A stretch of 64,000 nucleotides of DNA from Prototheca cutis (taxonomy: Eukaryota > Chlorophyta > Trebouxiophyceae > Chlorellales > Chlorellaceae): assembly GCA_002897115.2 (NCBI GenBank), contig BCIH01000006.1, positions 486,634 to 550,633 on the forward strand, given 5' to 3'. Under the pieces are notes generated by a model. It did not search any database. It was not told the origin of the DNA and saw only the letters and a program-made list of their open reading frames with translations. A program made the position numbers and the translations under genes. Each line of letters begins with the position of its first letter. Within the stretch, counting starts at the first letter, position 1. Positions 7,951 to 63,437 of this stretch are shown in pieces.

Positions 7951-8260
7951 GGCTGCGACGCGCAGGAGAAAGAGTCCCGGGTTTGCCCTCGCGGATTCCT
8001 ATAAAATTACAACTATTGTGGTAGTGCAGAACCGTGGCCTGGGTTTGAGTCCCAGGGCCTGGGAGCTGCTCATGGGCCGGGCCCCCGGCCCCCCCGGCGC
8101 GATGGCCACTGGGGCTCCGCTTTCCACCCACGTCAGGCTGGACCCTTTGGCGTCATCCCCGGCCCGCACCCCGCTGCGGCCCGCGAAGCCAATGCCTGCC
8201 AGGCCGTTTGGAGTCTTTTTGACCTAGTTACCNGCGGGATCAGGAAGTGGGGTTGCCAAA
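7951..8260. promoter_or_regulatory. Divergent promoter region between IF1 and Miro
   Basis: 310 bp separate the two start codons, which face away from each other, so both promoters must lie here or inside 5' UTRs. An AT-rich stretch with a TATA-like TATAAAAT occurs at about 8000 on the plus strand, unusual in this GC-rich sequence. Whether it is a functional TATA box is inference. Confidence 0.4.
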
Positions 8261-10171: not shown

Positions 10172-10202
<31 letters not shown>

Positions 10203-10776
10203 GGGGGAGATGCCTGCTGTCTAGGTTTACATCGCGGTATTTTTGTGCCCCTGAAAAATGCCCTGCTCAAATCACAACACCCGACGACCCTCCTATTCTG
10301 TTCAGGAGCTGGCAGCAGAGGTGGGCGAAACGTGCAGCCGGCTGTGCGTGGCGCCACCAGTGTCAGCGTCCGGGCAGCTTCCAGGGCCGCAGCTGTACCG
10401 CTCGATCGTGGCGGCCGCGATCGGCGGCGATCTCACCATCCCCCTCACACCCAGTCTCCAGGTGAGGAAGGGTGTAGTGACTGATCTGTCTCTGTTTGAT
10501 GATTTGTGGGGTTGAGGAATGGGGGTGGGTGGGGTTGAGGTGCTTGGCAACACAGCACTCGCATTGGGACGCTGCACCTCAGGCACCAATACCAATCAGG
10601 CTCGATCCACAAAACGACGACAGGCCAAACGGCGGCGGTGGCGGATAATCCGGCGTGCTGCGTGGTGCGGCGCGGGTGGCATTGCCGCGACCCTAGCGGG
10701 CTTTGTTGCATGGCGGGTCTACCACGGCCAGCCTATCCTGGGCGGCACCAAGTCCAGCACGGCAAAGGCGCAATAA
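8261..10776 (+). CDS. MIRO: Miro (mitochondrial Rho) GTPase
   Basis: Outer-membrane GTPase that couples mitochondria to motility and ER contacts. Exons 8261-8989, 9128-10138, 10306-10461 and 10600-10776 give 2073 nt (690 aa). The N-terminal GTPase shows a P-loop GDPGVGKTS, DTSS in place of DTxG (normal for Miro) and SAKK. Two EF hands follow: DKDGDGILSDEEL, and DHDMDGVLSVREE before the second GTPase. The ELM/hidden EF region (NNGLTLEGFTALHALF) is typical. The C-terminal GTPase is degenerate: its P-loop region reads FSPDGLDAGTLLEGL with no GK[ST]. The C-terminus has a basic stretch and one membrane helix (AGGIAATLAGFVAW) with a short tail, as in tail-anchored Miro. Introns 1 and 2 begin with GC. 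Intron 2 holds a T20-G26 tract. Confidence 0.93.
10162..10207 (+). repeat. T20-G26 homopolymer tract in Miro intron 2
   Basis: About 20 T (10162-10181) run directly into about 26 G (10182-10207), just after the intron 2 donor. Length is likely unreliable because such tracts are prone to sequencing error. Confidence 0.8.
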
Positions 10777-11164: not shown

Positions 11165-14100
11165 TCAGAGCCAGGGTTGCCAGGTTGGCTCCATGCGGCA
11201 GAGGTTTGCCGGGCTCGTGGCGACTTCTACCAGCGCCCGCATGCCGGCCTGGGGGTTGCCCTGCGCCACGACTGCCGGTCCTGGGCCGATGCCGGCGACG
11301 CGGGTGGTGGCCGCGGCAATGTTGAGCTCGACGCACGTCGCCAGTTGTTCCGGCCGGAAACTGGAGGCCAGCGCGGCGATGGACCGTGTGCCCGACCGCC
11401 GGGCGGCCCATGCCAGGATATCGTCCCGCAGGAACAGCGCCAGCATTGCCGGCAGCGGCGCGTCTGTGGCTTGAAGGGCCTGCGCTGCCGCGACGGCGGC
11501 TGCAACGAGAAGCCCTTCGCGGCCGTGCACGCCCATGAAGGCTGTCATGTTGCGTGTCAGCCTGAACGGCACGGCCTCGTGGCCCGCATCCAGCTGGAAA
11601 CGAGGATCGTACGCGGCGGCCAGCTCTGCCTGGGACAAACGACCAGTCGCCCGCGACACAAGGACCTTGCCCGGGCTGCGTCCTGCGAGAAGCAGCAGGT
11701 GGCACGCCAGCGCTGCCAGCGCGGCTGACTGCGCAAACTGCTTCTTCACCACCCACGTCAGCTTGGGATCCACCATCGTCTTGTGCATGTGCTGGCTCAG
11801 AATGTTCTCGGTCACCAGCCGCGACGTCACCTCCTCGTACGCCGACAGCCGCACCGCCGGGTCTGTACTAATCCCGGCCGCAGAGCAGCACCGCGCCTTG
11901 AATGCCATGATCGGATCGTCGGCCTCCCTTCCGTACCTGCAGTAGAAACCGGAGTGACGTTTGCTTGTTTGGCNGTTGGCGGTCGGTTGCCATTCCCAAC
12001 AATTCCCCCCCAAATCCCCCCAAAACAGCCAACACAAGCCAACCTGGCACAGTGGTTTTCGTAGACATCGATGAGTGAGAGGTTTGTAGGGTCGTCGGCG
12101 ACGACCCGAACGCCCGGATGGACGGCCAGGGCGGCGGGGGCGGAAAACTGCAGGCTGCGCCACCGGGCCTGCGGGTGCGCGAGGAGCAACTGGTTGGCGC
12201 CGCGAAGGAAAGCCAGGACTCGCTCCTCCGCGCCCGCGACCGACTGCTGCGCGGCGGCCACGAGGAAAGCACGGGGCATCCCGTCCGAGCCGTGCAGCAC
12301 GATGCGACGGTACGACGCGGCGTTGCGGCGCACAACCTCGACACTCGCCGCAATGCGCTCGATGTAAACGGGGTCGGGGGAGTCGGGTCCCGGGGCCGAT
12401 TGCCCCGGCATCTCGATGTCCTCGAGAGCGAGCTCCAGCAGCAAGGGCGCCTCCGTCTCCAGTTTCAGGAACCGCGGGTACATGTCCTCGATCACGCTTT
12501 CCAGCATCACGCGCCAGCCCTTGAGCCGCTCCGTCAGGGCGCCCAGCGTGGCAGGCGCCCCGGGGGATGTAGGGTCCAGGTCACGTGAAAACTGCAGCTG
12601 GTATGCCCCTGTACGCCCCGGGGCACTGCCACCAGCACCTGATGCACTGTCGCGACCTGAGCACGCGCGGCACACGCCGACCAGCTCGCGCTTGAACGCC
12701 TCGGGGACAGGGGCGTCGGCCGGCAGACCCGTCTTATAGGTGCGCTGCGTCAGCGTGTGGATCACGGCCAGCAGGCGCTCGTCGGTGCGCGTGGACAGCC
12801 GAGCCGTCAGCTCCTGCATCAGCACCTCCAGGCCCTGCAGAGGCACCGCAAACTTGCGCTTGAGCACCTCCATCACCTCCTTGATCGCCTCGTATGCTAT
12901 TACTTCCATCGGCTTTTCGATCGCCGGCGAAGTAGCCGTGGTGGCGGCGAGGGTCGGGGCGGCGGCAGCCGGGGCGGCACCTGGTGTTGAGCCAGCCTCG
13001 GCCGCTCCATCTGCCGGAGGCGGCGTGCCCGAGCCTGGCTGACCAGTGCTAGGCGCGGCCTCTCCACCGCCGCCGCTGGACGGCGCGGCCGACACGCTTT
13101 CCTCCTGCTGGTCTCCACCGACAGCTTCGCTGGCCCCGGCCGTGGCACTGGAAGCCTCGGCGCCCCGGCTGGCCCTGCCGGCGCCGCCCTGAGAGGCAGT
13201 GTCCGGCGTCGTCGCTGCCACGGTGCTGGCCGCCTGCGACGATTGTTCCTGCAGCTGTTGTTGGGCCGCGGGCTGCTGAGCAGCCACCGACTGCTGCGCG
13301 CCAGAAGCGGCACCACCGGCTGGCGTACTGCCAGCCTTGGCTTGGGCGGCTTTCATGGCCTGGACGGCCTTGACGGCGGCTTCCTTGAGGGAAGCCATGG
13401 CGGGTCGCAGGCTCCAGTACAGCTGCTGCGGGTACGCCGCGGCAGCGTATGCCAGCAGCTTGCGTGCCGCGCCGACTTCGGGCCGCTGCAGCCCCGTGAG
13501 CAGCTGCGGCACCCAGGGCAGCCAGACCCAGGGCGGCAGGTCGGGCGCGGCAGCCGCCAGCACTCGGCCCACGACCTCGGCACCCCGCGGCGCCAGCGCC
13601 AGCAGGTGCAGCAGCCGCGGGGCCAGCGACCGCGCCTCCAGGCCGCCGAGCCGGATAGCCTGGACGTAGCACGTCGCCGCGTGCTCCAGCCATGGACCTG
13701 CATCGGCACCACCGCCACTGCTCGCGGCGGCAGCGTGTCGGGCGTCGCAGAACCTGGCCCAGGACGCCCAGCCGTCGGGGCACAGCGTCCACAGGGTGAG
13801 GGCCTGGGAGAACTGGACGTGGGCGGCGTCGGTTTCGTCCATGGCTGCGAGGAGTCGCGCACGGAGGACGAGCATTTCTGCCTGGTGCTGCGGCTGGAAG
13901 TAGTCGAGGTTGGTGCCATTGAGCAGGGCCAGGCCCTGGGCCAGCGTCTCGGGACGCATGAGGCAGGCGCGGGCCTGTTCGCGGACCTTGACGAACGCCT
14001 CCTGGACCTCCATGGCCGTGAAGCCGTACATGGTGTTGATGATGGAGCAGCAGGCGTCCGGATGACCCTGCAGCCGGGCCACCATGCCCAGTCGGTTTAC

Positions 14101-17100
14101 GCTCCAGGCCTTGTCGCGGTAGCCCATCTGGTGCAGGTTGGCCGCAATGGCCTGCGGGCTGCCGGCCAGCTGCGCGATGGCCGTGTCGTGAATCTGGTTG
14201 CGCCAGCTCAGCAGGTCCGACCACCAGCGCAGCGGTTCCCAGTCATTGGGAGTGCGCAGCTTCCACGTCTCGCACACGTCCTTGAGCTCCTGGAAACCCT
14301 GGCCGGGCCCGCCCTTGTGCACAAACTCCAGCATCACACGCCACGACTCGGGCAACTCCACCGCACGCTGGAAGAGCTGGAGCACCGGCGCCAGGGCCCA
14401 GGGCGAACCCTCGGGCATGGCCCACCATCGCTGGATGGCGTGAGCCAGCGCAGCCTTGCACAGGCGCTCGACGTCCTGAGCCGGCTCCGTCAGCGCCACC
14501 TGGGCGCGCACCAGCGCAAGCTCGGGACCCTCCTCTGCCTGGGCACGCGGCAACACCGCCCCGCGAAGCTGCGTCCAGTCGTGCAGGTGCGCCAAAGCAT
14601 CCAAACCCAGCGTGGCGTTGTCCACCAGCTTGGCATATTCCGCCACGGAATCCCACTGGTTGAGCTCGGCTGCCATAGACAGATACGCACGTTGCCACAG
14701 CACCATTTCAGATTTGGTCGCGCCGGGGACGCCGCCACGCGCACCACGTGCCGCCAGGTCCAGCAACGCGTCCTGCGCCTGGGTCAAAAACCCGTGAGCC
14801 TGAAGCGCAAGCGCAGTCCGCGTCTCGTCGGCCGCGGCGCGGCGCTCCCACAGCCCGGCGACCATGTCCTCCTCGCCCACCGTTGCGTACAACTCGCACA
14901 CGGCGTCAAAGCACCGCATATCCCCCGGGAACAGGGTGACGTGCGATTCCAGCATGCTGATGGCCGTCTGCCAGGCATGGAAGTGCCGGCCCATGTACTT
15001 GATCATCTCCGCGGGGATCTTGGGCTGCGGCTGCGACATGGAAATGCCTTCCAACAACGTCTGACCCACCGTCGGCCGCGCGCCGCTCTGCCGCGTATGG
15101 TGCTCGCGGGAAAGCAACTGGATGATAGGCTTGGCCAGTGCCGTCTGCTGCTCCTTGCCCAGACTCGTCCAGACAATCGGGAACAGCAGGCCCCACAGGT
15201 GGCACGCTGCCGCGGGGACACCCTGCACCAGCTCACACAAACAGTCCACCTGGGGCATTGATTTGGCGGGAGTTGCTTGGGGTCTGACATGGCTTGGGTG
15301 AGACACAGACGCAGACACACACAGGACGGTCAGGACAGCAGACCGCACCATGTCAACCCCCTCCCCCCGGTGGCTCACAGAGCGTCAAGCGCCCCAACAG
15401 AAGAAAACAAAATACTCATGCATCACCATAAAATGCACCAAGCACACCAGTGTTTCGGAGCGTGTCGAGCCTTGTTCCACCAAAAAGGCCAGGTGCTCAC
15501 GTAGCTTGCCCGCCAACTCGGGCGGCAGCGCCACGTCGGCCACGGGCGCTGCCCGTGGCCGAGGGGGCCCACTCCGCGTCGGCGAGGCCGTGGTTGGTGG
15601 GGCATCCTCGGGAGCCCGGGTGGCCTGGACGGCAGGCTTTGGACCCGCCGCGCCAGATGTGCCCGGCGTTTGCTCGGCCTTGGGCGTCCGAGGCTCAGCT
15701 GTCACTGCAGTGCCGCCTTCTGTAGCGGGCATCGCACCTGGGGTCCCGGCCTGGTGCTCTTGTTCCTGGCCCGCAGCCGGCAGCGATGCACCAGCCAGTG
15801 CTGCACCCGCGGTGACCTGAGGCTGCGCCGGCGGGGGCCGTGGCACCGAGGGCGGCGCGGCGGCCGGCTGCGGACCGCCTGAGGTCAGAGCCAGTGCGCC
15901 GGGGTCGAGCAGGCCAGGCACATGGGCCGAGTTGTACGCCATGGTGATGGGATCGGCCTTGTGCGCACAGTCGAAGAGCAGCGACACGCCGTGCTTGAGC
16001 CAGTAGGTGTGCGCCAAGAAATCCCAGTCCTGGACTTGGATGACGTAACGCAGCCGCTCGAACAAGTCTGACGGCACTCGGTCCGCATACAGCCGGAAGA
16101 ACTGCACGTGTGTTGGGGAGGAGGGGTGTTAAACTTCAGAGGGACGGATGTCGTCGGTCTCCTGGGTTTTTCGCTCTCTTCCTTCACCAAGATGAAGCAC
16201 ACCTTTTGGCGGGTCTCGGGATCGGTCGCCTGCAAGCCACAGCAGAANGTGCGTTCGACACGCAAGAANAGCTCCAGTCCAAAGTCCGCGTCCTGCGCAG
16301 GATCGAATTATTTGTGTGGGTTGCGTGGGTGGTGGCCAGTCGATGAACAGAAACTGGCCGGCTGCCAAGCGAGCTTTCCCTTTCTGGCACCCTGTCTTTG
16401 GTCTAATAATACGGCTCCCCCCCCCCCATCCTTCCCAAAACACACGCACACAGCCTTCTACAACGGCCAGCAAAAATGGAGCAAAAACAGCACCAAAGAC
16501 GTGCCTTTTTGTCTGTAATGACACTGTACAGCAGCCCCAGGAACTTCTTGTCCCATAGTGGCTTGAGGTTTGCTGGGATAGCATGCAGCCGGTCCATCTG
16601 TAGCATTGATGAGTGGGTTTGTGGAAAGGGATTGATAGACGCTGGACTTGTCGCAGGTGAGGCCAAATTGGTTTGCAGCTTTCTACAGCAGTCACATCGT
16701 CCACCTCCATGCAGCGCCGCATGCCTTTCCTTTCAGGCTCTGGCCTGCAGCGCAAGCCGCTCACACGAGCAAAAGCTCCCATCCCGCTCTCAACACCCCA
16801 CAACCAGAGTCTCACCTGTGCGAGTCGCTGAAGGAACACCAGCGGCTCCTTGCTGGTGAGCTGCGGCTGTTGCGGCGGCTCGCCCGGCCGCGCATCCTCT
16901 GGCTTTGGCAGCAGCCACCCTTCCATCAGGTTGATCACCGCGAAGATGATGCTCGCCGCGGTCTGGCAGTTCCGCACCGATGGCCCTGCATAGCGTTGGA
17001 GCCCACGGTCCGTTGCCGTCTCGTTTGCAGTTTCAAATGAGCGGGCAGCAAACGATCTGGATCAAGTCGGCCAATCAACCACTGCGCCTTGGACTCAACC

Positions 17101-31502: not shown

Positions 31503-34224
31503 TCAGAGGGAGCGCGCACGGCGCAGGGTGGACGGCGTCCCTCCCGTGCCCGTGCCTGTGCCCGCAGGCGCACCGCGCACCTCGGCCACCACGTTGGCAG
31601 CGGCCGCGAGGACTTGCTCGCGCAGCTCGCGGTTGGCGGCTTGGAGCGCAGCGACTTTCGCCTCGAGTGCCTGGGTGTACTCTTGGCGCCGGGCGCGCGA
31701 CCGCGCGGCGCTCTCGCGGTTCTTGATGGCGCGCTTGGTCGCGCGGGAGTCGGGAGACTCGGCCGCCGACGCCGACGCCAGCCGCGCCGCGATCGGGCCA
31801 GCTGCCGCCGCGGCCGACGGCGTGGTCATCGCAAGCATGGGACCGAGATGCGAAGGGCCCGCGTTGGTCCCATACTGCCGGCTGGGCAGCGCTGCATCCA
31901 ACTTGGGCAACGTGACAGCGGGTGACGGTGGCCCGTGGGGGNNAGCTGTGATTGTCGACGGCGCCGCAAGACCACCACCGCCAAGCTGCCCTCCAGCAGC
32001 CCCGCCGGCGACAGGTGACGGNGGCTGCGGCGGTTCCGCAACGGAGACGCCAGCACTGCGTGCGACTGATGGCGCGGGGGAGTGTGACCTCGAGGGCACC
32101 GCGCCACCGACATTCATGTCATCCACGCGGCGAACTTGGGTGGCACGNCTTGGCAGGTCATCGGAGCTTCCCTCCGACCGCCGGACGTGGCCAACGGCGC
32201 CGGCCGCGGCGGCGCGTGCCTCCTCGGCCTCACGACGCTTTTGCTTGCGCGCCGCGCGNGCCGCCGCGGCTGCGGCCGACCGCTCCGCACCCGACACCGC
32301 TGCGTCTCCAGAGGCGCCCGCCGCATGCCCTCCAAGCGGCGCCGCTGCGCCAGGGGCCGACGACACAAAGGGTGAGACGCTGGGCCCGGACACAGACCGC
32401 ACCATGCCGCTGTCCGCTGGCGNGTGGTGGTGGTGCCCTGCGCCTGGGCCACCAGCAGCGCCGTGTGCACTGGGACCCGTCGGGTAGGTGCCCGGGCCGG
32501 CGTGNGGCACGCCCTGCATGGGGCCCAGGTTGACCTTGCGATAGCCCGTCAGCCCTGCAGCGCCGCCGCCGCCACCGTCACCGGCATGCCCGTGGTCGTA
32601 CGTGGCGGNCACGTTTTCGTACGGCGTGGGTCGTAGCCCGCCGTGGTGCGCCACGTGCTGCTGCAGTTGTCGTGATGGCTGCTGCTGGCGCTGCGCGGCA
32701 GCGGCGGCGGCGGCGGCCACCGCAAGTGCCCGCGCCCCGGGATCAATCCCCGCGCCACCCTGTAGCGCCCCCAAGCCCAAGCCGGAGGGACCGAGCCCCG
32801 CAGCGTGTGCCGAGCCTTGCCCCGGGGCCTGACTCTCCTCCATCTCCCGTAGCAGCTGCGCCGCTGTGGCTGCCCACCGCGCCACGGTGTCGGGCGCCGT
32901 GGCAAGGTCGACGCCAAACAGCACCCCCGGCCCTCCGGACTCAGCAGGTGCCGGGCCCCCAGGCCGCGGCACCGTGGCACCAAACCCGGCTGTGCGGTGG
33001 TGGGGGAGCTCTGTCACGCCTCCCGGTTGTGCAAAGGGATCGGGTGGGGGGATGGTAGCCGCTTGCTGTTGTTGCTGCATGTTCGGGGTGCCGTGCCGCG
33101 GCCGCGCCGCCTGCATGGTTGTCCGGCCGTCCTCGCCCCCATGGCCCGTCGGCGGCGCGCTGGTCTCTGCCGCTGCCATGACACCCAGCAGGCCGGGCCC
33201 CGTGGCCGATCCGGCCAGGCGTGCAGGAGGTTCGATGCTCCCTGCCGCCGAGGCCAGGCCCATGCGACTTGCGCGGGGCGGCGGAGGGTCGAGGCTGTTT
33301 GGGTTGCTGGCCCCAGGCGGCAGCATGGACAAAGAGTCGCGGCTGGAGGCCAGCAGCGACGACGTCCATTGCGACGAGGGAGGCAGCAGGCTCGACATGT
33401 CGGGCAGCAGCTGCGCTGCCTGATCCAGAATCTGTGTCCAGGGGTGGGGGGGGACAGCTGTGTTCGCTTGGGCGGCGTCAATCGACCAAAAGACAAATGC
33501 AGCAGGAGTACTGACCGTGTCTGCACTTGGGAATACCGACAAAGGAGCTCAGGAAAAAATCCACCAACGACACACACTTGCCTCGGATAGGCGAAGCTCG
33601 GACCCCTCCCCCTCCAGCCGCTGCCCTATGCTGTTCATGATTTGCTCCGATATCTCATGAGAGAATTGGGTCCTGTGTACAAGGGGAGACCGTGGGGATT
33701 GGGAATGGGCCGGCTGCCGCGTTGGGCCGGCGGTGCTGATGGGTTCCTAACCTATGGGGCCCCTCCCCTCTGCCGTCTCAATTCCCGATTTTGGCAAGCG
33801 GGATGTGGTGATCTGCCCAGAAGCCAGCGCCCCACATTGCTCGGACGGGGAGCCCGGAGGCATGTCTAGACTACTGGCATGACCCGCCGCGGCAAGATCG
33901 TGTCAGGAGCTTCTCACCCCGGTATGGCAATCTTCTGGAGCGCTTCGACGGCGATGCCCAGCGAGTTGACCGAGCTGCGCAATTCGGAAGCGGACGTGGT
34001 GCCCAGCTGGGAGCCCTCAGAGCTCGCCGCAGTCACCAGCGTTTGCAGGAACTTACTCTGCGCGTGTTGTGGTCACATGCATGCTGAAATTGTGATGAAT
34101 CGGGGCACGCAGTGGACGTTTGAGGCACACAAACCCCCGCGGAACGCACCAGTTCCAGATGCAAACTGCTGTCGAGCTGGGCGCTCGACTGAGCCCCATA
34201 TGAGGGGTCCGGATTGAGCTCCAT
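31503..34224 (-). CDS. bZIP transcription factor, ABI5/ABF-like basic region
   Basis: DNA-binding regulator. Exons 34224-34150, 34057-33918, 33672-33582 and 33431-31503 sum to 2235 nt (744 aa). The C-terminal basic region KNRESAARSRARRQEYTQAL is nearly identical to plant group A (ABF/ABI5) bZIPs, which bind ACGT cores, followed by a short zipper (EAKVAALQAANRELREQV). The rest is Ala/Gly/Pro/Gln-rich with His runs, probably disordered. An N-terminal segment (KFLQTLVTAASSEG to VEALQKIA) is predicted helical. Intron 3 uses a GC donor with perfect consensus (GAG/GCAAGT). Eight single-base Ns fall inside the coding sequence (31942-32609), so the local residue calls there are uncertain. Targets unknown. 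Confidence 0.85.
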
Positions 34225-42659: not shown

Positions 42660-43472
42660 GGCTCCGCGACTGGCACGTGCACAGCCTGCCACCCAGTGGC
42701 TCTATGATGTTTCAAGCCCCAGGGCCGAGACCATTACCAGTCAACACTGCATGGGCCTCGTAATTTCTCTGCATGCGGCTCGTAATCAACACCATATCAA
42801 GGCAATACACTGTATGGATATTCACGTGTGCCTGTAGCTAGCTGTAGCACCGGAAGAAGCAAGAATGGCTGTGCCCCAAGACATTTCAGGGCGCGCTACA
42901 CGGATAGCCGGGAATGCCACGATACCCGCAAATACCTTCCAGGCCCTCCCGCGCAGCACCCCCTCGTACGACCGCGCGAAAATATTTATTCCGCACCAAA
43001 AGATCAGTCTGAGAACAGGGCGGGGCCAAGAAGGAGCGCGTTCGTGAGCAACCGCCCTTCAACGTTCGGGGCTGCGCAGCTGCGGAGGCTGGGCCCGCCA
43101 AACCGCGCGTGTAGGCCCTTGCAACGCCTGTTAACTCCAGAAATCGAGATAATGAAAGGATTTCGGCGATTGGGGGTGCAAATGGGAGTTGTAACTCTGC
43201 GGTTAAGTCGGTTCTGGTTCGGCGGCCCTTGGCGTTTGAACGCGCCGGCAGCATGCACCTTGGGGTTGGCAAGGGCCGGGGTCATACACTGTTTGGGCCC
43301 AGAGCAGGTGCTGTGTGGGCTCATTCCATAAGAAAATCTTGTCTTACACCTCCATACCATCATTCAATTGCCCATTGTTGTCAGATCAAGGGGAGTACTG
43401 TATATACAAAGACAGGTCAATCTAGGGATCAGGTTCAAGTTGAGCAATGGTCAACGGCATGGCCACCATGTT
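42660..43472. other. Intergenic region upstream of POP5
   Basis: About 810 bp. It must hold the POP5 promoter. I found no recognisable exon, tRNA or repeat. Confidence 0.45.
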
Positions 43473-44972
43473 CTAAGCCTCTGCAGCTGCGCCTGGCCTC
43501 CCTGCGGTCCTCTGCCTGCACTTCTGGTGATTGCGTTCCCGCCGCCCGTTCTTCCGCTTCTTGGATCCAGAGCCTGAGTTGGGAGGCATTTCAACCCAGA
43601 ATCCTTCTTCTTCTAGCTGTGCCGCATGCTTGTCGATGGTTGCCGGAGACCATGTGCTTACCCATCTTTGAGTGAGTGAATCGAAGAAGGTCATCCTTTG
43701 CTGCATGTGGGTCCTCCAGCATATAGCACCGCACCAGGCCGTCGATGACAGGGTCTTCCAGGGAGTGGCGAGCGGGCGGGGTTGAAGGGCCAGCATCATT
43801 CCCACTTGGGGGTGCCGCGCTCGGGGTCAGCGAGACCAGATGGCTGTCCACAGCAGCCTGCTGGGATCCGGCACCGTGGATGTCTCGTGGCGAATCCCGC
43901 TCAGCATAGCGGGGATTGGGCCGGCGCTGCCGGCTCCTGGCTCAGATCGGGCCATTCGTCCACGTGCTGGGCTCTGTCATCAGGCTGAGCAGCTGTGGTG
44001 GCTGGTGGTGGTTGATGTCCACAGTCCAAACACCTTCTAATCCTCCTGCGTTGAAGATGACCACGGGAACGGATAGTGCAGCCACTGCATCGGACTGGTC
44101 GACGCGCCGGCTGTTGCAGGGACGGGGAGAGCTCCCCGGTCGGCACCGGGCCGGCCCCCCGTGACGCACTGCCGCCGCACAAGGACGACCTCGAAAGGCT
44201 GCACCGGCGGCTGTCCTGGGACGTGCACGCCGGGGGTTGCATTGAGGTGGCCGAGCACGTGCAAGAGGCATGCCTTCACGATGCGGCGGGGGTCGGAAGA
44301 GAAGACACTCACCCAGGTGGTGCGCCGGCATCAAGCGCAACGACAGGTGCTCCAGGCCGGGGGACGTGGCGTCCCGCAGTCGACGGTGGCCCATCCAGCA
44401 GCAGCAATGCGTGCAACCCAAACAGCAGCACCGCCCGGTCGTCCCCACGTGGGCGGCTGTCATCCTTCCAAAATAGAAGCAGATACTGCGATGCAGGGCC
44501 GGGAGGGAGGCGTCGGCAAGCAGCGGTGAGGCACGACCAGAACGAAACCGGTGGAATCACATGGATGGAGGGACACAGTTCGTCTCAGTGCTGCACACGA
44601 TTTTCAAAGCCATCCTAGATGCGAGGCTGCTCCAGATTGGATTGTGTGCCCGGCTTCTATCTCTCCCACAAACACACACATACCTCGGGGAGAAAAGGGG
44701 TCCTGGTCGTGGCGCGCAGGCAGCGGTGCCTGCAGTGCCGGGATATTGTTGGCGAGCTCTAGGCCGGCACCCCCGACATTCGCCGGGCCATTGCGGGCGA
44801 TGCACTCTTCCTGCTCCTCTTCGAGGTTTATGGGATCGGCGTCCGCGGTCTGGGAGAGACTGGGACGGGCATCAAACCCTAGCCTTGAACCACCGCAGCC
44901 AGGCGAGACGGCATTCCGACGTCTCTTGGACGGTTTGCGGCGGCGGAAACCGTATGTAATGAATCCGTGCAT
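43473..44972 (-). CDS. Unrecognised probable coding locus (exon structure uncertain)
   Basis: I do not recognise this locus. Candidate exons on the minus strand: 44972 to about 44692 (MHGFITYGFRRRKPSKRRR, basic then acidic, ending before a GTATGT donor); about 44530-44307 (starts YLLLFWKDDSRPRGDD after a good acceptor, ends at a GTGAGT donor); about 44205 to 43943 (contains VVIFNAGGLEGVWTVDINHH); and 43880 to 43473 (HSLEDPVIDGLVRCYMLEDP, then Lys/Arg-rich C-terminus). The phases do not all join, so these may be two genes, a decayed gene or transposon cargo. The last part has two competing readings: a GTAAGC donor after SKMG, or a frame shift into SPATIDKHAAQLEEEGFWVE, which looks like a coding helix. 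Confidence 0.3.
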
Positions 44973-45055
44973 TGAATGTGCCTGCGAAATGCGGGTCTGG
45001 TAGCCAGAATATGCATCGTGCTCGGTTGCACGGTCCTCGAACGGGCTCCTAGCGC

Positions 45056-48000
45056 ATGGCCAGCGTCCAATGCGATAGATCCGGGTATCAGATGGCGTCG
45101 CCCGACCAGCGTCGTGCGAGATACATGACAGAACAATCTCCTGTTTCATTGTATACTATGGTGACGCGCAAAAGAAAGCGTCCAAGGGAGGAAGGCGGAG
45201 GGTGCGGGGCCGACTGCGGGTGTGCGAGTGCACGCCCCGCCTCAGCAGCTGCCGTGGCTGCAGCCGCTCGTGCTGCAGGTGGCGGTGGTGAAGGCCCAGG
45301 CGCTGGAGGTTCCAACGATGTCGGCGGCGCAAGCCCGGGTTCCGACGGTGTCGGCGGCGCGAGCCCGGGCCCGGACAGCGGCCCTGCCGACGGCGGCCCG
45401 GGCGAGGGCGGCCAACCAGGGCCCTCGTCGCCGCCCGAGGAGCCCTGCAACCCCCCTGACACGGTCGAGGAGGAAAGCGCGGACGGCAAGCACTTCACCA
45501 TCAAGTGTCCGCTGGCGCACCACCTGCGGGCGAACGTGTGCTCCGCGATCCTGGCTATCCTCAGCTGGAACGTGAAGTTTTGGACGGGGCACATGCGCTT
45601 GGTGTCCCTGGTCGCCCTCGAATATGTGCTGCGGAAGCTCGAAGTCGGCGAGGTGCCGGCGCAGCTGACCAAAGAAGAGTTCAGGAAGGCACTGAGCTAC
45701 CTGTGCGGGCGGAACCACTACGGCGACGAGGGGCCAGACAACGTGAATGTGGCGGGCGAGTTGGCCNAGTTCATTGNGAAGCANTATCGCTCGCGNGTGA
45801 GGCCGGCGGNGCATCAGNGGCGGCAATGNGATCTCCAGGCAGCACAGCTCTACCAGGCGTACANGAGGCACCTCAACACGCACAAGCGGTCGTCGGCACT
45901 GGGCCTGCCGGCTGCAAGCCTGGAAGCATGCGGGATGGGCGAAGGCGACGCGAGGGACATTGCGGAGCGCACGTGGAACGACCTCGTGTCTGGCATCAGA
46001 CGCAAAGGCCGCGAGACGGACGACCAGGCCCGGCGTCGCGGCCAGCTCATCGCCGGGATCGCTCCCCGGGCGCTGGAGAAGGCACTCGTTCAAGCTGCCG
46101 AGAAGTTTGGTCCTGGCTGGGAAGATGTTTTCGCTGACTTGGTTCCCGTCATCCGCCGCTGCGGCGCAGATGTGCCGTCGCTTGGAACCGTTCAAACGTC
46201 GCCCGACATGGATGCTTCCCAGGTGTGTGTGGCTCAGATGGCCACGTGGCGCTCCGGCCTGTACGAGCTTGTTCTGCCACTGCACGCATTATGGCTTTGG
46301 CCGATGGGATGCAGTCTTTGTACCGGGCTCAGCACAGGCCATTCCCGCCCTCAGACCATTCCATCGCCGCCGTCCCGTGCCTGCAGGTCGGCGCCGAGCC
46401 AGAAGCACTCCAAATGGTGCCCAAGATGGTTGTGCCTAACGTGGCCCGCGCCGAGGTGCGGTGTCGTGGAGCCCATCAGGCCGTGCTTGGGTTTGCGGGC
46501 ATGGCTGGCGCGTGGGCAAGGCGTGATCGATGGGGTCCCCGGGGGGGGGCCATTCGCAGCGCAGAAGTGTGCCCCGCCCTTGGCATTCCAGCGCACGGCG
46601 ACCCTGCCGCACAGCGTCAGCACGATCGCCGTCTCACCCCCGCGCGACTGCTGCTTGACGCCCACTGTTTCCACCCGCAGGCCGGCCCTGACCAGCGTGA
46701 AAGTGCCAGACAAGGTGCCCAGCAGGCAACCTCAGCGAGGTCTGGCCGGAGGAGGATCGGGGAGTGGCAGGGGAACGGCCGCTTGCGCTGGCCGGCGGGC
46801 GAGGTGGAACGGGCCATGCCGCCCCGGCTCGACATGCTGTCGGCCCGCGATCCGGACGGCGTGGTGCACCTGGCATACGAGCTGCTGGCGATCTTCAAGC
46901 GTTGCGGCGACGAAGGCCGGCCTGTGCAGCTGCCCAAGGCCGACTGGTGCGCGATCATCCGCCCGATCGCCAGAGCCCTCATGTGGATCAGTACCGAAGC
47001 GGACAAGCTGCGCCTCCTGGCCACGGCTTCGGAGTTCATGTGGCGGACGAGGCGGTGGAAGCAGACGTTCACCGTGCTGCCCATATGCCGCGCATCGGCG
47101 CGGCACATCATCCTGGACACGCAGGCCCTGTGGCTTCTCTGCCAGCAAGCGGGTACCGAGGTCGGCACGCGGGATGCCTTTGTGGCAGGGGGCCCGGAAA
47201 GCTGGCGGGGACTGTTCGACTTTCCCAGCACGTGGTTCGCGTCGGACCGATGCGGCCGGGCCCGCAGGCGCAAGAGGGTTGTGGGGGATGCTACGACCGA
47301 CGGCGTGGCACTGAGCTTGGCCTTGGAGCGCGGGGGGAGCGGCAGCGACGGGGAACAAGGCGGCCGCGTTCCCTGGCACGTCGCCAAGAAGGCCCGGAGG
47401 CGGGCCGCCGCGAAGGAGGCCAAGCAGGCCTCGTGGGATGCCAAGCAGGCCGCGAAGAAAGCCCAGGCGGCCACGAAGAAGGACAAGGAGGTGGTGGACA
47501 AGGCGCATGCGAAGAAGGTGCTGGGCGGCGGCGGCTGCTCGCTGGGCATCGACCCCGGCCGCAAGGTCATCCTGACCTGCAACTACGGCGACGGGAAGGG
47601 CGACACCGTGTGTGTGACTACAAAGGAGTACCGCCACAATGCGCACTTCAACAAGAACCGCGACGGCCACCTGAGGCTTCTGCGCGAGAACAAGGACCTG
47701 TGGGACGTCGTGGGGAACGTGCCGTGGCTGGCGACTGGCCGCGCGCAGGACGTGTGCGACCACATCGACTACATGTTCCAACCGTTTGATGGCGAGCGCA
47801 CGCGTTTCGACGCCCTGCTCGACGTCACCTGCAGCTACAAATGGAGGAAGGGCGCGTTTGNTGTGTACATGATGAGGTANANGGCCATGGACAAATCCAT
47901 CAAGGATGTCNTTGCCTGCACAGGGCACCAGCCCAGCAGGCTTGTCGTGTTCATGGGCAATGCCAGCTTCAGGCACAACTCGCCCGGCCATCCTCCGAGC

Positions 48001-48099
48001 CTGGGGTGGCGCCGCTGGGCCAAGCGCATGCGGGAGGCGCACGGACTGCTGGTGATAGAGGTCGACGAGTTCCGCACGTCGCAGGCGCGCACTGTGTGT

Positions 48100-48144
<45 letters not shown>

Positions 48145-48153
48145 CGGTGGGGG

Positions 48154-48203
<50 letters not shown>

Positions 48204-48657
48204 GGTGCACGTGTGGGGGTGTCTTGTCGGTGCCGGGTTGGATGGGTGTGGGCAGTGGGACGGGCGAGCAGGTGCCTGGGGAGGTTGGAGCGGGCTGGTG
48301 CACGTACGCACACAGTGTCGACGGACTGCTGGTCACACCGATCCCAAACGCGCAACACCGCAGATTTGTTCGGCGTGCAAGGCGCATGCGCGCTTGGTGG
48401 GATGCAGCACCGCCCGGAACAAGTACGCCATCCTCAAGTGCCACAGTTGTGGCGTGGTGTGGAACCGCGACGTCAATGCCGCGCGGAACATCCGCCACCT
48501 GGGCGAGAGGCTGGTCCTGACCGGCGAAAGACCGCCGCCTTTTGATCGCAAAAGCAAGCTCACCCCCCTTGCATGTTCCCCTCCCGGGCGTTCCACCTTG
48601 TATGATTTTATCACCAAGATACTCCGCTGGCTCTGGCCTGCGGAACAGCACCATTGA
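45056..48657 (+). CDS. Fanzor: eukaryotic TnpB-like RNA-guided nuclease
   Basis: Homologue of the transposon nuclease TnpB. Exons 45056-46222, 46387-48084 and 48364-48657 keep frame (1052 aa); an extra in-frame 222-nt intron (46459-46680) is possible and would give 978 aa. A basic nuclear-localisation-like motif TRKRKRPREE lies at about residue 37; later ATGs at 45092, 45125 and 45161 are alternative starts. The C-terminal half is RuvC: motif I SLGIDPGRK (catalytic Asp near 47550), then VVFMGNASF where TnpB has its Glu, then IEVDEFRTSQ, a zinc finger ICSACK ... LKCHSCG, and motif III VWNRDVNAARN with the last Asp. A Lys/Ala coiled coil precedes RuvC. Intron 2 starts at GCGCGC or nine bases later at GTGTGT; only the former puts TSQ next to ICSAC as in TnpB. 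Twelve Ns lie in the coding sequence, one possibly a stop (47878-47880). Confidence 0.88.
48100..48202 (+). repeat. Poly-G tract in Fanzor intron 2
   Basis: About 100 nt of almost pure G, broken only near 48145-48155 (CGGTGGGGGCG). It sits between the TSQ and zinc-finger exons, so it must be intronic if the nuclease is intact. Confidence 0.85.
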
Positions 48658-48903
48658 ACACGTGCTGTGAGGCCAGTTTGTTTCTGGATTACCCTCGCGG
48701 ATCTCTTGTGGGGTGCGCGTTCCAGGTTCTCTGGGATCGTACCCCACCCCGAGGCAGTCTGTTGCCGGATTTTTCAAAACGTCGGGGCCATTCCCCCTCG
48801 AGCGGGACCCCGCCAGCACTTGGACGGCCTTTGCGTCGATCCCAGGAACATCGAGGGGGGAATTGTGTAGATCGTGACGTTCTCTCCCTATTCATGCTGC
48901 GAG

Positions 48904-57843: not shown

Positions 57844-60800
57844 TCACATGACTCGGGCATTGTAGCCACGGCAGGCCTCGCAGCGATGGTATACAAAGTG
57901 GAAGGGCACCTCTGACCGCGCGCCGCAGTCGTTGCAGAGGATGGTCTGCCGGCGCGTAGCGTACTCCTTCGGCAACTGCTCGGCTTCCAGGAGTCGGTCA
58001 AGCATGCGCCAGTACGACTCCAGGTTGCCCAGGCTCTTGAAGCACAGCGGACATGTGTAGGAATAGCGGGTGTAGGCGGCAAAGCAGTGCGAGTGCATCA
58101 AGTGCCCGCAAGGCAACTCCTGCAGTTTTGCGGGGAGCGATGGACGGTTGAATTGTTCACTGTTGAAATCATTGATGGGGTGTTTGTTGGGAGGACGAGG
58201 GTGGGTGAGTGCACCGGAAGACAAGCCGCATTCCCAACCTTCACGGGGCATTTAAACCACCCCCCCTGCCCACCGAAACACACTTCCGCACCTTGACGGG
58301 AAACTTGCTCTCAAACAGCATGTCGGAGCAGACGGGGCAGTCCCGTTTCAGGCTCTGCTCTTTGCACTTGTGCTTGTTGAACAGCTCCAGGCTCATGCAG
58401 GCATTGCACGACATGCAGTGAAAAGAGTCGATGCCCGGGCCCTTGCCCTGTAGTGCTTGTCCGGTTGGGTGGTGGTTGCGGGTTAAGACACGGGTTTGAT
58501 CAAGCCATCAGCGCAGAACTGGTGACGCAGCAGGATTCTGGCAAACACCGGGTGTCCAAAAGAACAAATGGCAGCCAATGATGCGGGGTTTGGGGAGGGA
58601 GGAGGACAGTCATGCGGTTCTCTACCTAGGTAGCCTAACCCCCCGCGAGCAGCCATCCAACGCCGCCATCCTGACTTCTCCCTCTCTCCAACAACCAGCA
58701 CACACGCGCACACNCGCGCACACCTGGCGGCAAAAGTTGCAAAAGGGGCAGTGGTAGATGTCCTTGTCCGGGTCATCGTCAAACAGATGGCACACCTTGC
58801 AGTAATACCGCGCCAGCACGGTACCGCAGCCCGAGCACGACCCTGCGTGGTGGATGATTTGCACAATGATACCATGTTTGAAAGAAATCTCTTGTTTCCC
58901 TCCAACAAAACAAAACAGGCCCGCAAAACCCCTCCTTTGGCAACTCACCGGCCACAGGTTGGCGCAGGCCGCACTCCATGCACACCATCTCGCGCACGGC
59001 GTACCGGTCGAGCGTGTGGTCGCAGGCCTCGTCGTGACAGAATCGACAGACAAACGCGCGGTCACAACAGGGCGCAACCAGGCATGCCTTGCGGCGGTAG
59101 TGCTTGCAGCCCAGCAGTCCTCTACGCGCGTCGTGGTAATGCCGTGGCAGTGGTGTCGCTGGAGCAGAGGTACGTGGAGAAGGCGGAGCTGCTGTCGGCG
59201 GTTCTGCGGCCGTTCTGTCCGCGGGTGCCACCCGCGGAGTGGTTCCGGTGGCAGCACCGGCTTTGTCTGTCTGCTGCACGTTACCAGCAGCAGTAGCCGG
59301 TGGATTCATGACGGTCACACCACCATCGCTGGACGTCGCAGAAGNCGTGCCTGAGGGCGCTTGCGCAGCAAGCCGTTGCTGCTGACTGACGATGTACTTG
59401 CTGGCCATGATGTGCTGGATGAGGTACGCCTTGCGCTGCGGCTCCAGCCCCGCATCGGCTGAGACGCGCCGCACCGCGGCCTCCAACTGCTTCTGGTTCA
59501 TGCGGAAGATGTCGCCCCAGCCGGGCGTGTACGTCGACGTGTCGGCGCATGCCGCCCCGGCTTCTGCCGCACGCTGAGGAAACAGGCCTTGTGCCGACAG
59601 GTATGCCGCCACCTCTGCCANCGTGTCCCGTGCCTCCGCCGCCTGGACCCCGCCGGGGCTGGCGCCGTCGATCGGCGATGCAGCGCCGTCTGCCCTCGCG
59701 GTACTGCGTGTTTGCTGTGGCTGTTGTCCTGCTGCTGTCGTGCTCGTGGCAATGGCATCCGCGCCGTTGTCCGCACTGTTGCTGCCATCGACACCGGCAC
59801 CACCGCTCCCACTCGCCGCCCCTTTCGCAGCCGCGGCCGCCCGGGCAGCGGCGGCGCGTGCCGAGGGCGTCTCGGCGAGTTCGCCGCCCAGCGCTGTTCC
59901 CAGCCANGCGTCAAAGGCGGTGGAGGAGGCGGCGGAGCGGATGCTGCCCATCATGGCTTCTTCCTCTTCGGGAGTCATGGCTTGCCGCACCCAGGACAGC
60001 AGGGAAGTTAGAACGTCGGCCCCCGACCGCCCGATGATCAGGCCTACCAGGTGCTCCTGCTCCTTCCGTGAAAAGTGTTCTGCAAACAGCGGCCACAGCT
60101 CTTCCTCCTCCGCGCGGATGTGCGTCTCCAACGAACCACGAACGCCCGAGTACAGCCGTGCCAACTCGTTCAGTTTTGTGGATCGATCCGCTAATGCCGT
60201 CGTCGCCAGCACCACATCCAGACGCTGTAGTAGTAGACATGAGGGTGGGGCAGGGGGGCATGAGGGGCTGGCATGGAGACGGCAGGTGAAATGTGTCGTC
60301 GACAGGCATCCAAAAACCCTCAAAATCCGCTGCGCACCGCACTGCAGAGGGCAAACTGCTGTTCTTCCTGTTCGTGGTCGAGGGTATAGGCCTTGCTGAC
60401 GTTGCGCAGCACTTTCTTGCTTTCCAGCGCGGGAAACACGACTTCGTCCTCGGACAGGGAGTGTGCGTGGTAGATGCCGCGCAGGAACTGGAACCGCGCG
60501 GACAGCTGTCGCATGCATTCGGCTGTGTCCTGGAGGCTGCTGGCCGCATGCAGCGTCGCCTGGCACGCGGCGATCGTGCGCTCCAGCTCCGCGAGCTCCT
60601 TGCGCAGCGCGTTGTGAAACTGAAAGATGTGGTCGATGGGGGAGGGGCCCTGGTCGGGTTCGGGGCACCTCCCCGTGCAGCAGGGCGTCGCCCCTGCGCC
60701 CTGCGCACAGTTGTCTCGACAGCCGGTCGACCCACAGGTTTCCCGGCACGTCCGGATGCGCTTGGGCGGGTTTAGAGCCATTGTTTGGGTCTTGGTATCA

Positions 60801-63437
60801 GGGCTTGCGTCCGCATCACCGCCGCACCCGCCATGCAGAGCACAGCAGGAGGCTGACGTCGGCGAGGCGTCACGCTTGCTGCCAGCCGAGTGTCGTCCTT
60901 TGGCCGCTGTCATCGCCGCTGCCGGCTCCCCGAACAATGACGATCCGGCGCATGGCAACTCGGTGCCCGGCCACGCTTCCGCCTCCATGCTGTCTGCACT
61001 ACCCGGCCCAGGACGGAGCATGGGCAGGCAGGTGATGAGCGAGTACTTTGTCGGGTCGCTGGCCGGGTGAAGGTTGTCGGAGGTGTCTTCGGAAGTGTCG
61101 GAAGATTTTGGATTCTGGGTGACGCTCTCGCAATTACTGCGAGCACTATCTCCACCATCCGCACGCCGCTGCTGCTGCACTGCTCCATCGCCAGAACCCC
61201 CCGCATGCTTCACGGTTGCAGCAGCATCGGCCAAGCCGCGGCGCGCCCAGCGGCGGAGGAGGTCCAGCACGGGGGCCTGGTGCGGGTCGGTCCCTGCACC
61301 GGCCGCGATGTCGTCCAGCCAGGCTGCCGCGGCTGCAGGCGGCAGCTCCGCCGCGATCCAGGGCATCACGCGCTCCAGCAAGCGCAGCGGCATCGCGCTT
61401 AGCATGGCCCACAGCAGCCGGCGCTGCGTGGGGTAGTCTGCCATCCGCTGAACCTCGGCCAGCGCCCCCTGCTCCTCGGCACGCATGTGCGCCTGCATCC
61501 CCGTGCACAGCGACCGCGCTGCTGCCGCCAGGTCTGCCAGGGCGCCGCGGCGGTGCGATGCGCGACGCCGCGTGCGGGCCCGCACCTCGGCCAGCATGCG
61601 CTGCAGCTCCTCAAACCGCCCATTCTCTTCCTTGTGCTCGTGTGTCGATGGTCTGGGTGACCCCGCCCGGTGGCGGGAGCAAGCGCCCTGCAGCTGCTCA
61701 TCGTAATGGCTTGTGTGCAGGTCGTCAGGCGGCCGCTCCTCACCTGATTGCTGCTCCGCGGGCCCAGCGTCGCCATCACTACCACTCCTCCTCGACGCCA
61801 CCGCCCGAAGGACTGCCAGGGCGGGAAACACGACCTCGTCCTCGCTGGCTGAATGAAAAGCGCAGACGGCACGGATGAAACGGTGGCGCTCCGCCAGAGA
61901 TGCCAGCGCGCCGGGGTCCGGGTCGCCCTGCCCCGCCAGGGCCTCGGCCGCGGCCGCAAACCCCTCCATGGCTGCCCGAATAGCGCGGTGAATGTAGACC
62001 ACGGCATGCAACGGCGCCCGCGCAGGTTGATCCCCGATAGCAACGGAGGGGACTGCTGTGCCGGGTGGCGGATTTCCAGCCACATTCTCGTCTGCACCTT
62101 GTCTCCTGCTACTCATCACCACTCCTCCACAGTTCCGGTCAATCCCGGCATCGCCACAAGGCCCAACAGGCACGGGGCACAGAAGTTCGCCGTTGAGGAC
62201 CATGCAGTCGCAGGCATCGGCGGCCGTCTGGGCGTCGGCGGCGCGCTTCGCGGCGTCTCGCCGCATGGCCTCGGCACCACCCTCAAGCCATGCCAGCAGC
62301 ACCGCCCGCAGCGACGCGTCGGTCACGCAGCCGGCCAGTGCTGCGGCCAGGGCGCCACGCTCAGCGCGGGGGGCGCAGGGCTCTAGCCAGGCCAGCACTG
62401 CAGGCGCGGCCGACAGCGGGATGCAGCACATGAACTGTGCCACGAGCGCGGCCTGCTCACATGGGGTCAGGTGCTCCTGCAGCAAGGGCAGCAACTGTGC
62501 CTCCTCCTTGGAAAAATGCTTGGCCACCGTCGTCTGGATGCGCCATCCCAGCTGACTGCGGTGTTTTTTTCCAAGTTGGGTGGGGATCGTTGGTCGGTTG
62601 ATGGGGTGACGCAGGTGCCGTGCAGGGAGCTCGGTTCAGGACGCATTGATCTGGGCCAGTATACTCGTTCTCCGGGGCTCAGCAGCACTGGCGGAGTCAT
62701 CCAATGGTCATGTAAACGCAAACCCCCTGCGCCCCCAAACCTCTCGCGCCTCATGGCCTGGAGATCTTCACGGCTGGGCGCGGGCAGCTTGTGCTGGATC
62801 AGCTGCAGCATCTCGTCCAGGATCACCTCCTGCAAGCATTTGCGCATGTGCTTGGGTTTGTGTGTGGGTGCGGGTGATCAGCCATGCCGCCGGGCAAGCA
62901 GTGCCATCATCAGAGGCTCCGACACACAATGCCAAAACAGGCAGCAGTGGGTGGGCCCTGTCCCTATTTCAAAGCTGCCCTCTCCCCTTTGTACCTCGTC
63001 CTCGTGCTCCACGGTGTAGGATCGCGTGACGTTGGCCACCTTGGCTTCCAGGGCCGGGTAGATGACCTGCGGCGTGATCGGTCCAAAGGAAGGATCGCCT
63101 TCGTGCAGGCAAGTGTATCGTCCCCAGTCACTCGAGGCCCCTGCCCGCCTAGAATGACTCGCCCCGCAAGCATGAGACACTCACGCACCTCGTCCTCTGC
63201 ACTGCTGTGGTACTTGTACACATTCTTGAGGAAGGCGTACCGCCTGAGCACCTCCGGCCAATCCCCCCGGGACCCGTCGCACAGCTCGCCCAAATGGGCG
63301 GTCAGCGAGCTCAGCTCTCGGCGAATGGCCTCATGGAGGTAGGTGTAAAGGAAATGAATGGGTGCGAAAGCCTCGGCCGGCTGGGCTGGAGCTGTGGCCA
63401 GCACCTGTCGGGTCAAGGCCGTCTCCAGGGCTGCCAT
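57844..63437 (-). CDS. BTS: BRUTUS-like hemerythrin E3 ubiquitin ligase (iron sensor)
   Basis: Iron-binding E3 ligase that in plants degrades iron-deficiency transcription factors. Eight exons: 63437-63189, 63066-62995, 62829-62741, 62555-60338, 60224-58949, 58842-58724, 58447-58292, 58119-57844; 4455 nt, 1484 aa (Arabidopsis BTS 1254). Three or more hemerythrin-type helical repeats: IHFLYTYLHEAIRREL with YKYHSSAEDE, then HAVVYIHRAIRAAMEGF with CAFHSASEDEVVFPAL, then HIFQFHNALRKELAELE with YHAHSLSEDEVVFPAL; each H---E motif fits iron ligation. Next a CHY zinc finger (GCKHYRRKACLVAPCC, CDHTLDRYAVREMVCMECG), a CTCHY finger (YYCKVCHLFDDDPDKDIYHC), a RING (CPVCSDMLFES ... LPCGHLMHSHCF ... CPLC) and a zinc ribbon. 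All introns GT-AG. Confidence 0.96.

Follow-up and report, generated by a model that had tools for sequence, protein, structure and literature searches.

A 64,000-nucleotide stretch of Prototheca cutis DNA (contig BCIH01000006.1, positions 486,634 to 550,633 of the forward strand; hereafter the window) was analyzed around a gene predicted to encode a Fanzor RNA-guided nuclease. As judged from its sequence, the gene was confirmed to carry the full D, E, D catalytic triad, and it was found to lie within a repeated element, about a hundred related right ends of which occur in the genome. The following features were assigned to the element (window positions, strand, description):

42909..48749, plus: full extent of the window copy of the transposable element, about 5.84 kb, delimited by alignment limits common to other copies
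42909..42945, plus: left end, varying among copies, in some of which a short ACGATTCC-like core lies in the opposite orientation to the right end
42946..45157, no strand assigned: left half of the element, with long open frames, none shown to be conserved as protein
44425..44438, plus: left arm of a 14-bp direct repeat, marking the left-hand breakpoint of the internal deletion seen most often
45158..46222, plus: Fanzor exon 1, open frame with basic N-terminus MVTRKRKRPREE
46223..46386, plus: Fanzor intron 1, GT...AG, with a 4-bp indel and clustered changes among copies
46387..46462 (3′ limit a guess), plus: Fanzor exon 2, in which the frame continues with weak homology
46463..46681, plus: putative Fanzor intron 2, acceptor GCAG at 46681, donor placement tentative
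46682..48084, plus: Fanzor exon 3, RuvC-I (D codon 47551-47553) through DEFRTSQ (E codon 48067-48069)
48085..48363, plus: Fanzor intron 3, GC-AG, from copy comparison and homologue alignment
48364..48657, plus: Fanzor exon 4, zinc ribbon, RuvC-III (D codon 48469-48471), stop codon 48655-48657
48404..48417, plus: right arm of the 14-bp direct repeat, marking the right-hand breakpoint of the internal deletion seen most often
48658..48711, plus: hairpin 1, 3′ untranslated, CTGTGAGG pairing with CCTCGCGG; candidate guide-RNA scaffold
48712..48749, plus: terminal hairpin, GTGGGGT...ACCCCAC, ending at the right end, from folding and row comparison

With a guessed end for exon 2, the spliced Fanzor protein comes to about 944 residues; it has a long low-complexity N-terminus. 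The RuvC motifs I and III and the zinc finger that had been predicted were all found, as GIDPG, WNRDVNAARNI, and a C4 zinc ribbon, respectively, with the catalytic E located within VIEVDEFRTSQ. The TSQ-x-C junction, which had likewise been reported, was obtained by splicing out positions 48085-48363; this removal generates DEFRTSQ-ICSACK, which resembles homologue P0004 (DEFRTSQLCSRCH), and regains the usual TS-x-C spacing. Three introns were deduced in place of the two originally proposed (46223-46386, one ending at 46681, and 48085-48363), with intron 2 based on indels of 1, 2, and 8 nucleotides among copies, stop codons within 46490-46680, and the phase of exon 3. Intron positions were identical in the other aligned copies having those stretches; since the introns recur in this way, their presence does not point to domestication. 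In the window copy, intron 3 was found to contain a poly-G expansion of about 102 nucleotides (about 48098-48202), which was wholly missing in seven of the eight other aligned copies and represented by about 11 nucleotides in the eighth. Poly-G or poly-C tracts were also met in further loci (L031, L036, L042, and L106).

Exon 4 matched PF07282 (Pfam TNB domain) at 30.1 bits against a cut-off of 26.3, while exon 3 alone matched none of the Fanzor or TnpB families of Pfam or NCBIfam. A profile was prepared from an alignment of the window protein with nine database homologues, in which the catalytic D (in DPG), E (in DEFRTS), and D (in NRD) did not vary among the 10 proteins. When compared with the PDB, this profile matched the Fanzor1 proteins of Spizellomyces (8gkh, 3.8e-39), Parasitella (2.5e-33), and Guillardia (5.6e-31), as well as the TnpB-like L79 (2.2e-9). 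The Fanzor identity of the original prediction was thus borne out by profile search, through PF07282 and the three solved Fanzor1 structures. By the profile only, which includes nine other proteins, the window protein appears nearer to Fanzor1 than to Fanzor2/TnpB; a single-sequence search with the C-terminal 295 residues recovered L79, IS605 OrfB entries, and the Parasitella Fanzor1 about equally (2e-4 to 3.5e-4) and does not split Fanzor1 from L79/IS605 OrfB. The published Fanzor1 motif, D-X(125-275)-[TS][TS]-x-x-[C4 zinc finger]-X(5-50)-RD (PMC3627910), was satisfied in the spliced protein by D 670, TS 845-846, the zinc cysteines, and RD 882-883. Among database proteins, the best match of the C-terminal query displayed 36% identity over 82% of the query (25 matches among 777 candidates) and that of a longer query 28% over 74% (9 matches among the best 8000 candidates), with short matches reaching 40% identity. 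A viral origin was considered and rejected, as 103 viral-contig stretches fit a short pattern and none was confirmed as a relative. RNA-guided cutting by Fanzor1 has been demonstrated (Saito 2023, PMC10432273), and RNA-guided DNA cleavage by the window Fanzor, originally predicted to be or to have been a functional nuclease, is plausible.

Signs of purifying selection on the Fanzor exons were observed when the ratio of replacing to silent substitution rates (dN/dS) was calculated across eight aligned copies (21-28 pairs, not independent). The ratio was 0.32 in the RuvC part (47503-48084), 0.64 in 46684-47500, and 0.52 both for exon 4 and for the exonic sequence from 45461 to 48654. Tested parts of exon 1 gave 0.44-0.49 versus 0.92 and 1.75 in the wrong frames; the wrong frames of exon 3 gave 0.91-0.97, the introns 0.76-0.92 (0.92 for 46490-46680), and exon 2, of just 75 nucleotides, about 1.1. 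In-frame stop codons were absent from the aligned codons of seven of the eight copies, indels being excluded from this count. Substitutions private to the window copy numbered 8 silent and 13 replacing, a ratio of 0.49, compared with 0.33-0.64 for eight other copies.

Comparison with the 19.9-Mb genome (23 contigs) revealed that the unit is larger than the 45056-48657 first proposed, extending over about 42909-48749, and that it is not a single chromosomal locus, with about 100 related right ends and ten or so gene-bearing copies detected. A right-end pattern occurred 102 times at no more than two mismatches versus 2 times for the reversed control, and another occurred 68 times at no more than one mismatch versus 5 for its control. 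PF07282 had at least 97 matches in the genome when the best 150 of 181 candidates were scored. In the DNA searches for copies, for which the best 40 of 108 and the best 40 of 115 candidates were scored, most alignments had their right limit at 48748-48752 and started on the left mostly at 42909-42982, with an identity to the window copy of about 77 to 97%. Consistent with these limits, the divergence of 17 shortened copies climbs to 0.7-0.8 from position 48750 onward. Exceptions at the right were (i) L037 and L047, which end at 48705-48706; (ii) a second right-end type, which departs after 48673 in some copies and has extra sequence that, read by eye, is able to pair; and (iii) one right end without any left end. 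Large parts of the gene were present in about 10 copies: the window copy, C6:1370767, C5:1138950, C12:580613, C8:787280, C6:1236836, C1:532436, C3:1015150, C2:2202410 (5′-truncated), and C4:878400 (with a run of N in the middle).

Many copies have lost the gene yet kept both ends. Twenty shortened loci were chosen by matches starting at 48404-48410, and 17 of these align through 44438 and resume at 48404-48406, the two arms of the 14-bp direct repeat; two of the 17 (L033 and L047) have additional internal loss. Of the remaining loci, two stop at 44403 and 44362, and L037 represents a different deletion. In the aligned long copies, the left arm displayed 0-1 differences (eight copies having the stretch) and the right arm 0-2. 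A second deletion class, in which 43227 is joined to 47806, was found at four loci, with the junction at a near-match of about 10 bases in the three loci looked at. A third, very short form was noted at C14:374575 (L101), in which 42920-42959 is followed almost directly by 48565-48748. In addition, two members of the same orientation, one shortened and one with the 3′ half of the gene, were observed within 6 kb of each other (L042, C2:2196500-2206499).

The flanks of the copies were examined for target-site duplication after 7 of 49 copies were dropped for a right flank without the terminal motif; before this filtering, 4 of 20 flank pairs gave no end match. An exact repeat of at least 7 bases was detected in 22 of the 42 own flank pairs compared with 4.1% of 1722 mismatched pairs, and one of at least 9 bases in 9 of the 42 compared with 0.1%. 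These repeats extend up to 11 bases, and some own-flank matches (e.g., C7:925095) look like chance. Right flanks began with G after a C run in 27 of 42 cases versus about 46% from a base-composition estimate, a trend that we regard as weak and do not claim as an insertion-target motif. An initial reading of clear terminal inverted repeats was withdrawn after a shuffle test showed their weakness. Because introns are retained in the copies, the element would appear to have moved as DNA.

The two hairpins occupy the stretch between the stop codon and the right end, the expected location of a Fanzor guide RNA, and are kept in the shortened copies; Fanzor1 guides sit at the 3′ end of the RNA (PMC10432273). 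The last 95 nucleotides of the first 24 right ends with the terminal motif folded with a mean z of −3.65 (window copy −5.24, weakest −0.29). Within hairpin 1, CTGTGAGGC was the same in 43 of 43 rows, the rows having been picked by CTGTGAGG. Over the same number of rows, 95.3% of cells in the terminal hairpin were paired, and 5 of its 14 pairs displayed changes on both sides, a count reached in none of 500 shuffles. Rfam returned a single sub-threshold match (E 0.63). Special constraint on the right end of the gene-less copies was dropped as support, as its conservation was not exceptional and the best conserved window of these copies lay near the 1% permutation null. The 3′ segment with its hairpins is a candidate guide-RNA scaffold.

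Overall, we consider it probable that the locus is a copy of a DNA transposon family that is moved by a transposase supplied from elsewhere and benefits from guide-mediated retention; the one recognized protein of its longest members is a homologue of Fanzor1-type RNA-guided nucleases. According to this model, (i) a transposase encoded elsewhere would recognize the element ends and move the element; (ii) the 3′ end of the Fanzor gene, together with the two hairpins, would be transcribed into a guide RNA; (iii) the guide portion would be read from host DNA directly past the right end; and (iv) the resulting ribonucleoprotein would cut the matching element-free site, such that repair copies the element back and retention is favored. 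Deletion across pairs of short direct repeats, probably in the course of break repair, may have given rise to the gene-less copies, which may be moved in trans. A further extension, which we regard as quite unlikely, is that each gene-less copy is a guide-only element that prints a guide from its own distinct flank and uses Fanzor supplied in trans. If so, a handful of coding copies would serve up to about 100 guides, defending or restoring every insertion of the family, and would amount to an RNA-guided retention system distributed over the copies within the nucleus of a eukaryote.

Several results weigh against this explanation in whole or in part. Regarding transposition, the window copy had no detectable target-site duplication, and the inverted similarity of the ends was weak by shuffle test, with a mean z of 1.02 versus 0.17 for the direct-orientation control over 42 copies and the 5% level reached in 6 of the 42, the window copy not among them. 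No transposase was recognized in the element by Pfam on the frames tried or by frame-wise dN/dS, and therefore the element is not filed under the class II terminal inverted repeat transposons or assigned to a superfamily. The MULE domain had no match genome-wide (control positive in 3 of 14), and the searches for hAT, Helitron, and KDZ were uninformative, since none of their controls gave a match. Regarding the protein, a PDB search with exon 3 alone gave zero matches up to an E of 1, and the other aligned long copies are interrupted by assembly gaps or damaged by deletions, a duplication, or frame-shifting indels. Regarding the guide RNA, 3 of the 24 folded right ends had a z above −1; of the five both-side changes, three came from the badly aligned row L041 and one from the insertion row L090, leaving one clean change (L038). 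The right-end windows were conserved in gene-less copies, but left-part windows equally so, and because the terminal hairpin is the end of the element, its folding need not mean RNA.

These points bear directly on the competing explanations. That the right-end hairpins are a mere DNA end for transposition, with no guide-RNA scaffold, is a reading toward which we lean less than away, though it was raised, and the guide-only reading lowered, once the recount of covariation left a single clean compensatory change. It would account for the coincidence of the last hairpin with the element's end and for the unexceptional right-end conservation in gene-less copies; however, hairpin 1 (48658-48711) is internal to the end, and the folded stretch spans from directly after the stop codon through to the end, the place expected of a Fanzor guide RNA. 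A similar, tentative standing is given to the view that all copies are relics with nothing working today. The range of identity to the window copy (about 77 to 97%), the 20 of 42 flanks without a repeat of 7 bases, and the damage and gaps in the long copies are in keeping with it, whereas the low dN/dS of the RuvC part and the seven of eight copies free of in-frame stops in aligned codons (indels uncounted) are not. Somewhat less likely still, in our estimate, is a Helitron2-type rolling-circle transposon like CRe-1, 2, and 3 of Chlamydomonas, with one-ended insertion, loss of internal sequence, and duplications of variable length. CRe-1 to 3 are described as internally deleted with their 3′ ends intact, and their duplications measure about 7-19 bp (PMC3627910); the family examined here has a right end sharper than the left, some left ends that are shortened or have extra bases, and flank repeats matching over up to 11 bases. 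The weakness of the inverted repeats also led us to give this explanation more weight and the preferred one less. Arguing the other way, many left ends lie near one point, a T-rich target was not seen by eye at the insertion sites, and the Helitron N domain was not found in a search that had no positive control.

Domestication, in which the host would have retained a single Fanzor gene to serve a function of the cell, is considered very improbable. In its favor, the exons of the window copy are open, in contrast to the damage or gaps of the remaining aligned long copies, and the private replacing-to-silent ratio is 0.49; however, other copies have private ratios in the same range, and the element ends are retained in the company of about 100 related right ends. 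The original prediction had suggested long residence or domestication on account of the introns and of coding regions only about 85 bp and 245 bp away. Of these neighbors, the right one (about 245 bp) does stand outside the element, but the left one (about 85 bp) falls within it and had no conserved frame; with introns that recur and a family that is multi-copy with target-site duplications, the suggestion was not upheld. An intron-bearing Fanzor gene should thus not be called domesticated before its copies have been counted.

Other candidates for additional components of the transposon family were examined. For the left half, a second, minus-strand protein was considered, since long frames there look protein-like, but was rejected: among the long copies every tested frame is interrupted by stop codons, pooled dN/dS is 0.6-1.0, no clear three-base periodicity was present in 17 shortened copies, and the frames tried had no Pfam match. 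This rejection is less firm for the segment at about 43540-43800 (minus), which is protein-like, with a basic KKRK stretch, and is open in several shortened copies with shifting frames. Two loci were dismissed as autonomous partners: C4:878400, with an apparent length of 8.4 kb, has a run of N as its middle, and C2:1959900 has just the last 27 bp or so of the right end. This lone right-end piece (L097 and L111) lies beside proline-rich reading frames, which we take to be pherophorin-like. No transposase was found at 13 other candidate partner loci, looked at by alignment only.

Host genes identified by Pfam in the remainder of the window were as follows:

1380-5846, minus: GNOM-like Sec7 ARF-GEF
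8228-10462: Ras/EF-hand (Miro-like)
11830-15384: FAT/Tra1
31506-33548: bZIP
60323-62635: hemerythrin

The best named match of the GNOM-like ARF-GEF was from Auxenochlorella protothecoides (82% identity over 64% of a 221-residue region), followed by Chlorella sorokiniana (65%). The assignment of the Fanzor locus to the green-algal lineage is supported by the former match, at the level of sequence. The host may be non-photosynthetic, since the light-harvesting domain PF00504 was not found genome-wide (control positive in 1 of 14 genomes), in keeping with a possible colorless alga such as Prototheca.

How a Fanzor benefits its transposon is unsettled, and a family of about 100 copies in a compact 20-Mb genome, of which few are coding and many have retained the same right end, allows the question to be asked directly. 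As each copy predicts its own guide sequence, both the retention effect and the use of Fanzor in trans by gene-less copies can be addressed. Fanzor transposons are already known as a kind; the anatomy of this Prototheca family was not described in any title or abstract found in the literature covered, which leaves out most subscription journals. Fanzor1 is reported from a wide range of transposons, among them green-algal copies with deletions and elements with 9-bp duplications and no transposase (PMC3627910), and from a Fanzor1-only non-autonomous element of an insect virus (PMC10711439). Among these systems, CRe-1, CRe-2, and CRe-3 of Chlamydomonas reinhardtii (Helitron2; Bao and Jurka 2013, PMC3627910) are alike in being green-algal, in their intron-bearing Fanzor1, and in their numerous copies that lack internal sequence but keep the 3′ end intact, with target-site duplications of variable length, but differ in having ends common with verified Helitrons and insertion after TTTT (PMC3627910), whereas no T-rich target was seen here. 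The fungal MuDR-like elements ROr-4, PBl-3, and MCi-4 (PMC3627910) likewise encode Fanzor1 without a transposase, and their 9-bp duplications are close in length to those found here; they carry inverted repeats that match those of confirmed MuDR elements, unlike the weak repeats and lack of a detected MULE domain in our family. According to the same source, CMe-1A of Cyanidioschyzon merolae resembles the family in its roughly 150 copies in an algal genome, about 80% identical to the consensus with Fanzor1 still encoded, in having a shorter relative, and, as inverted repeats are weak here, in its lack of such repeats, but its duplications are indeterminable and its short relative has only the 5′ part in common. 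The Fanzor1 proteins of Spizellomyces, Guillardia, and Parasitella (8gkh, 9cer, and 9cf0) share the D-E-D order and long profile matches, and differ in that the long low-complexity N-terminus belongs to the window protein. A further system is the Fanzor-encoding repeat of Auxenochlorella, which is reported as uncharacterized (PMC12633428; journal version PMC12636532) and which was compared by description only; it is reported to be the most abundant repeat in the genome of this near relative.

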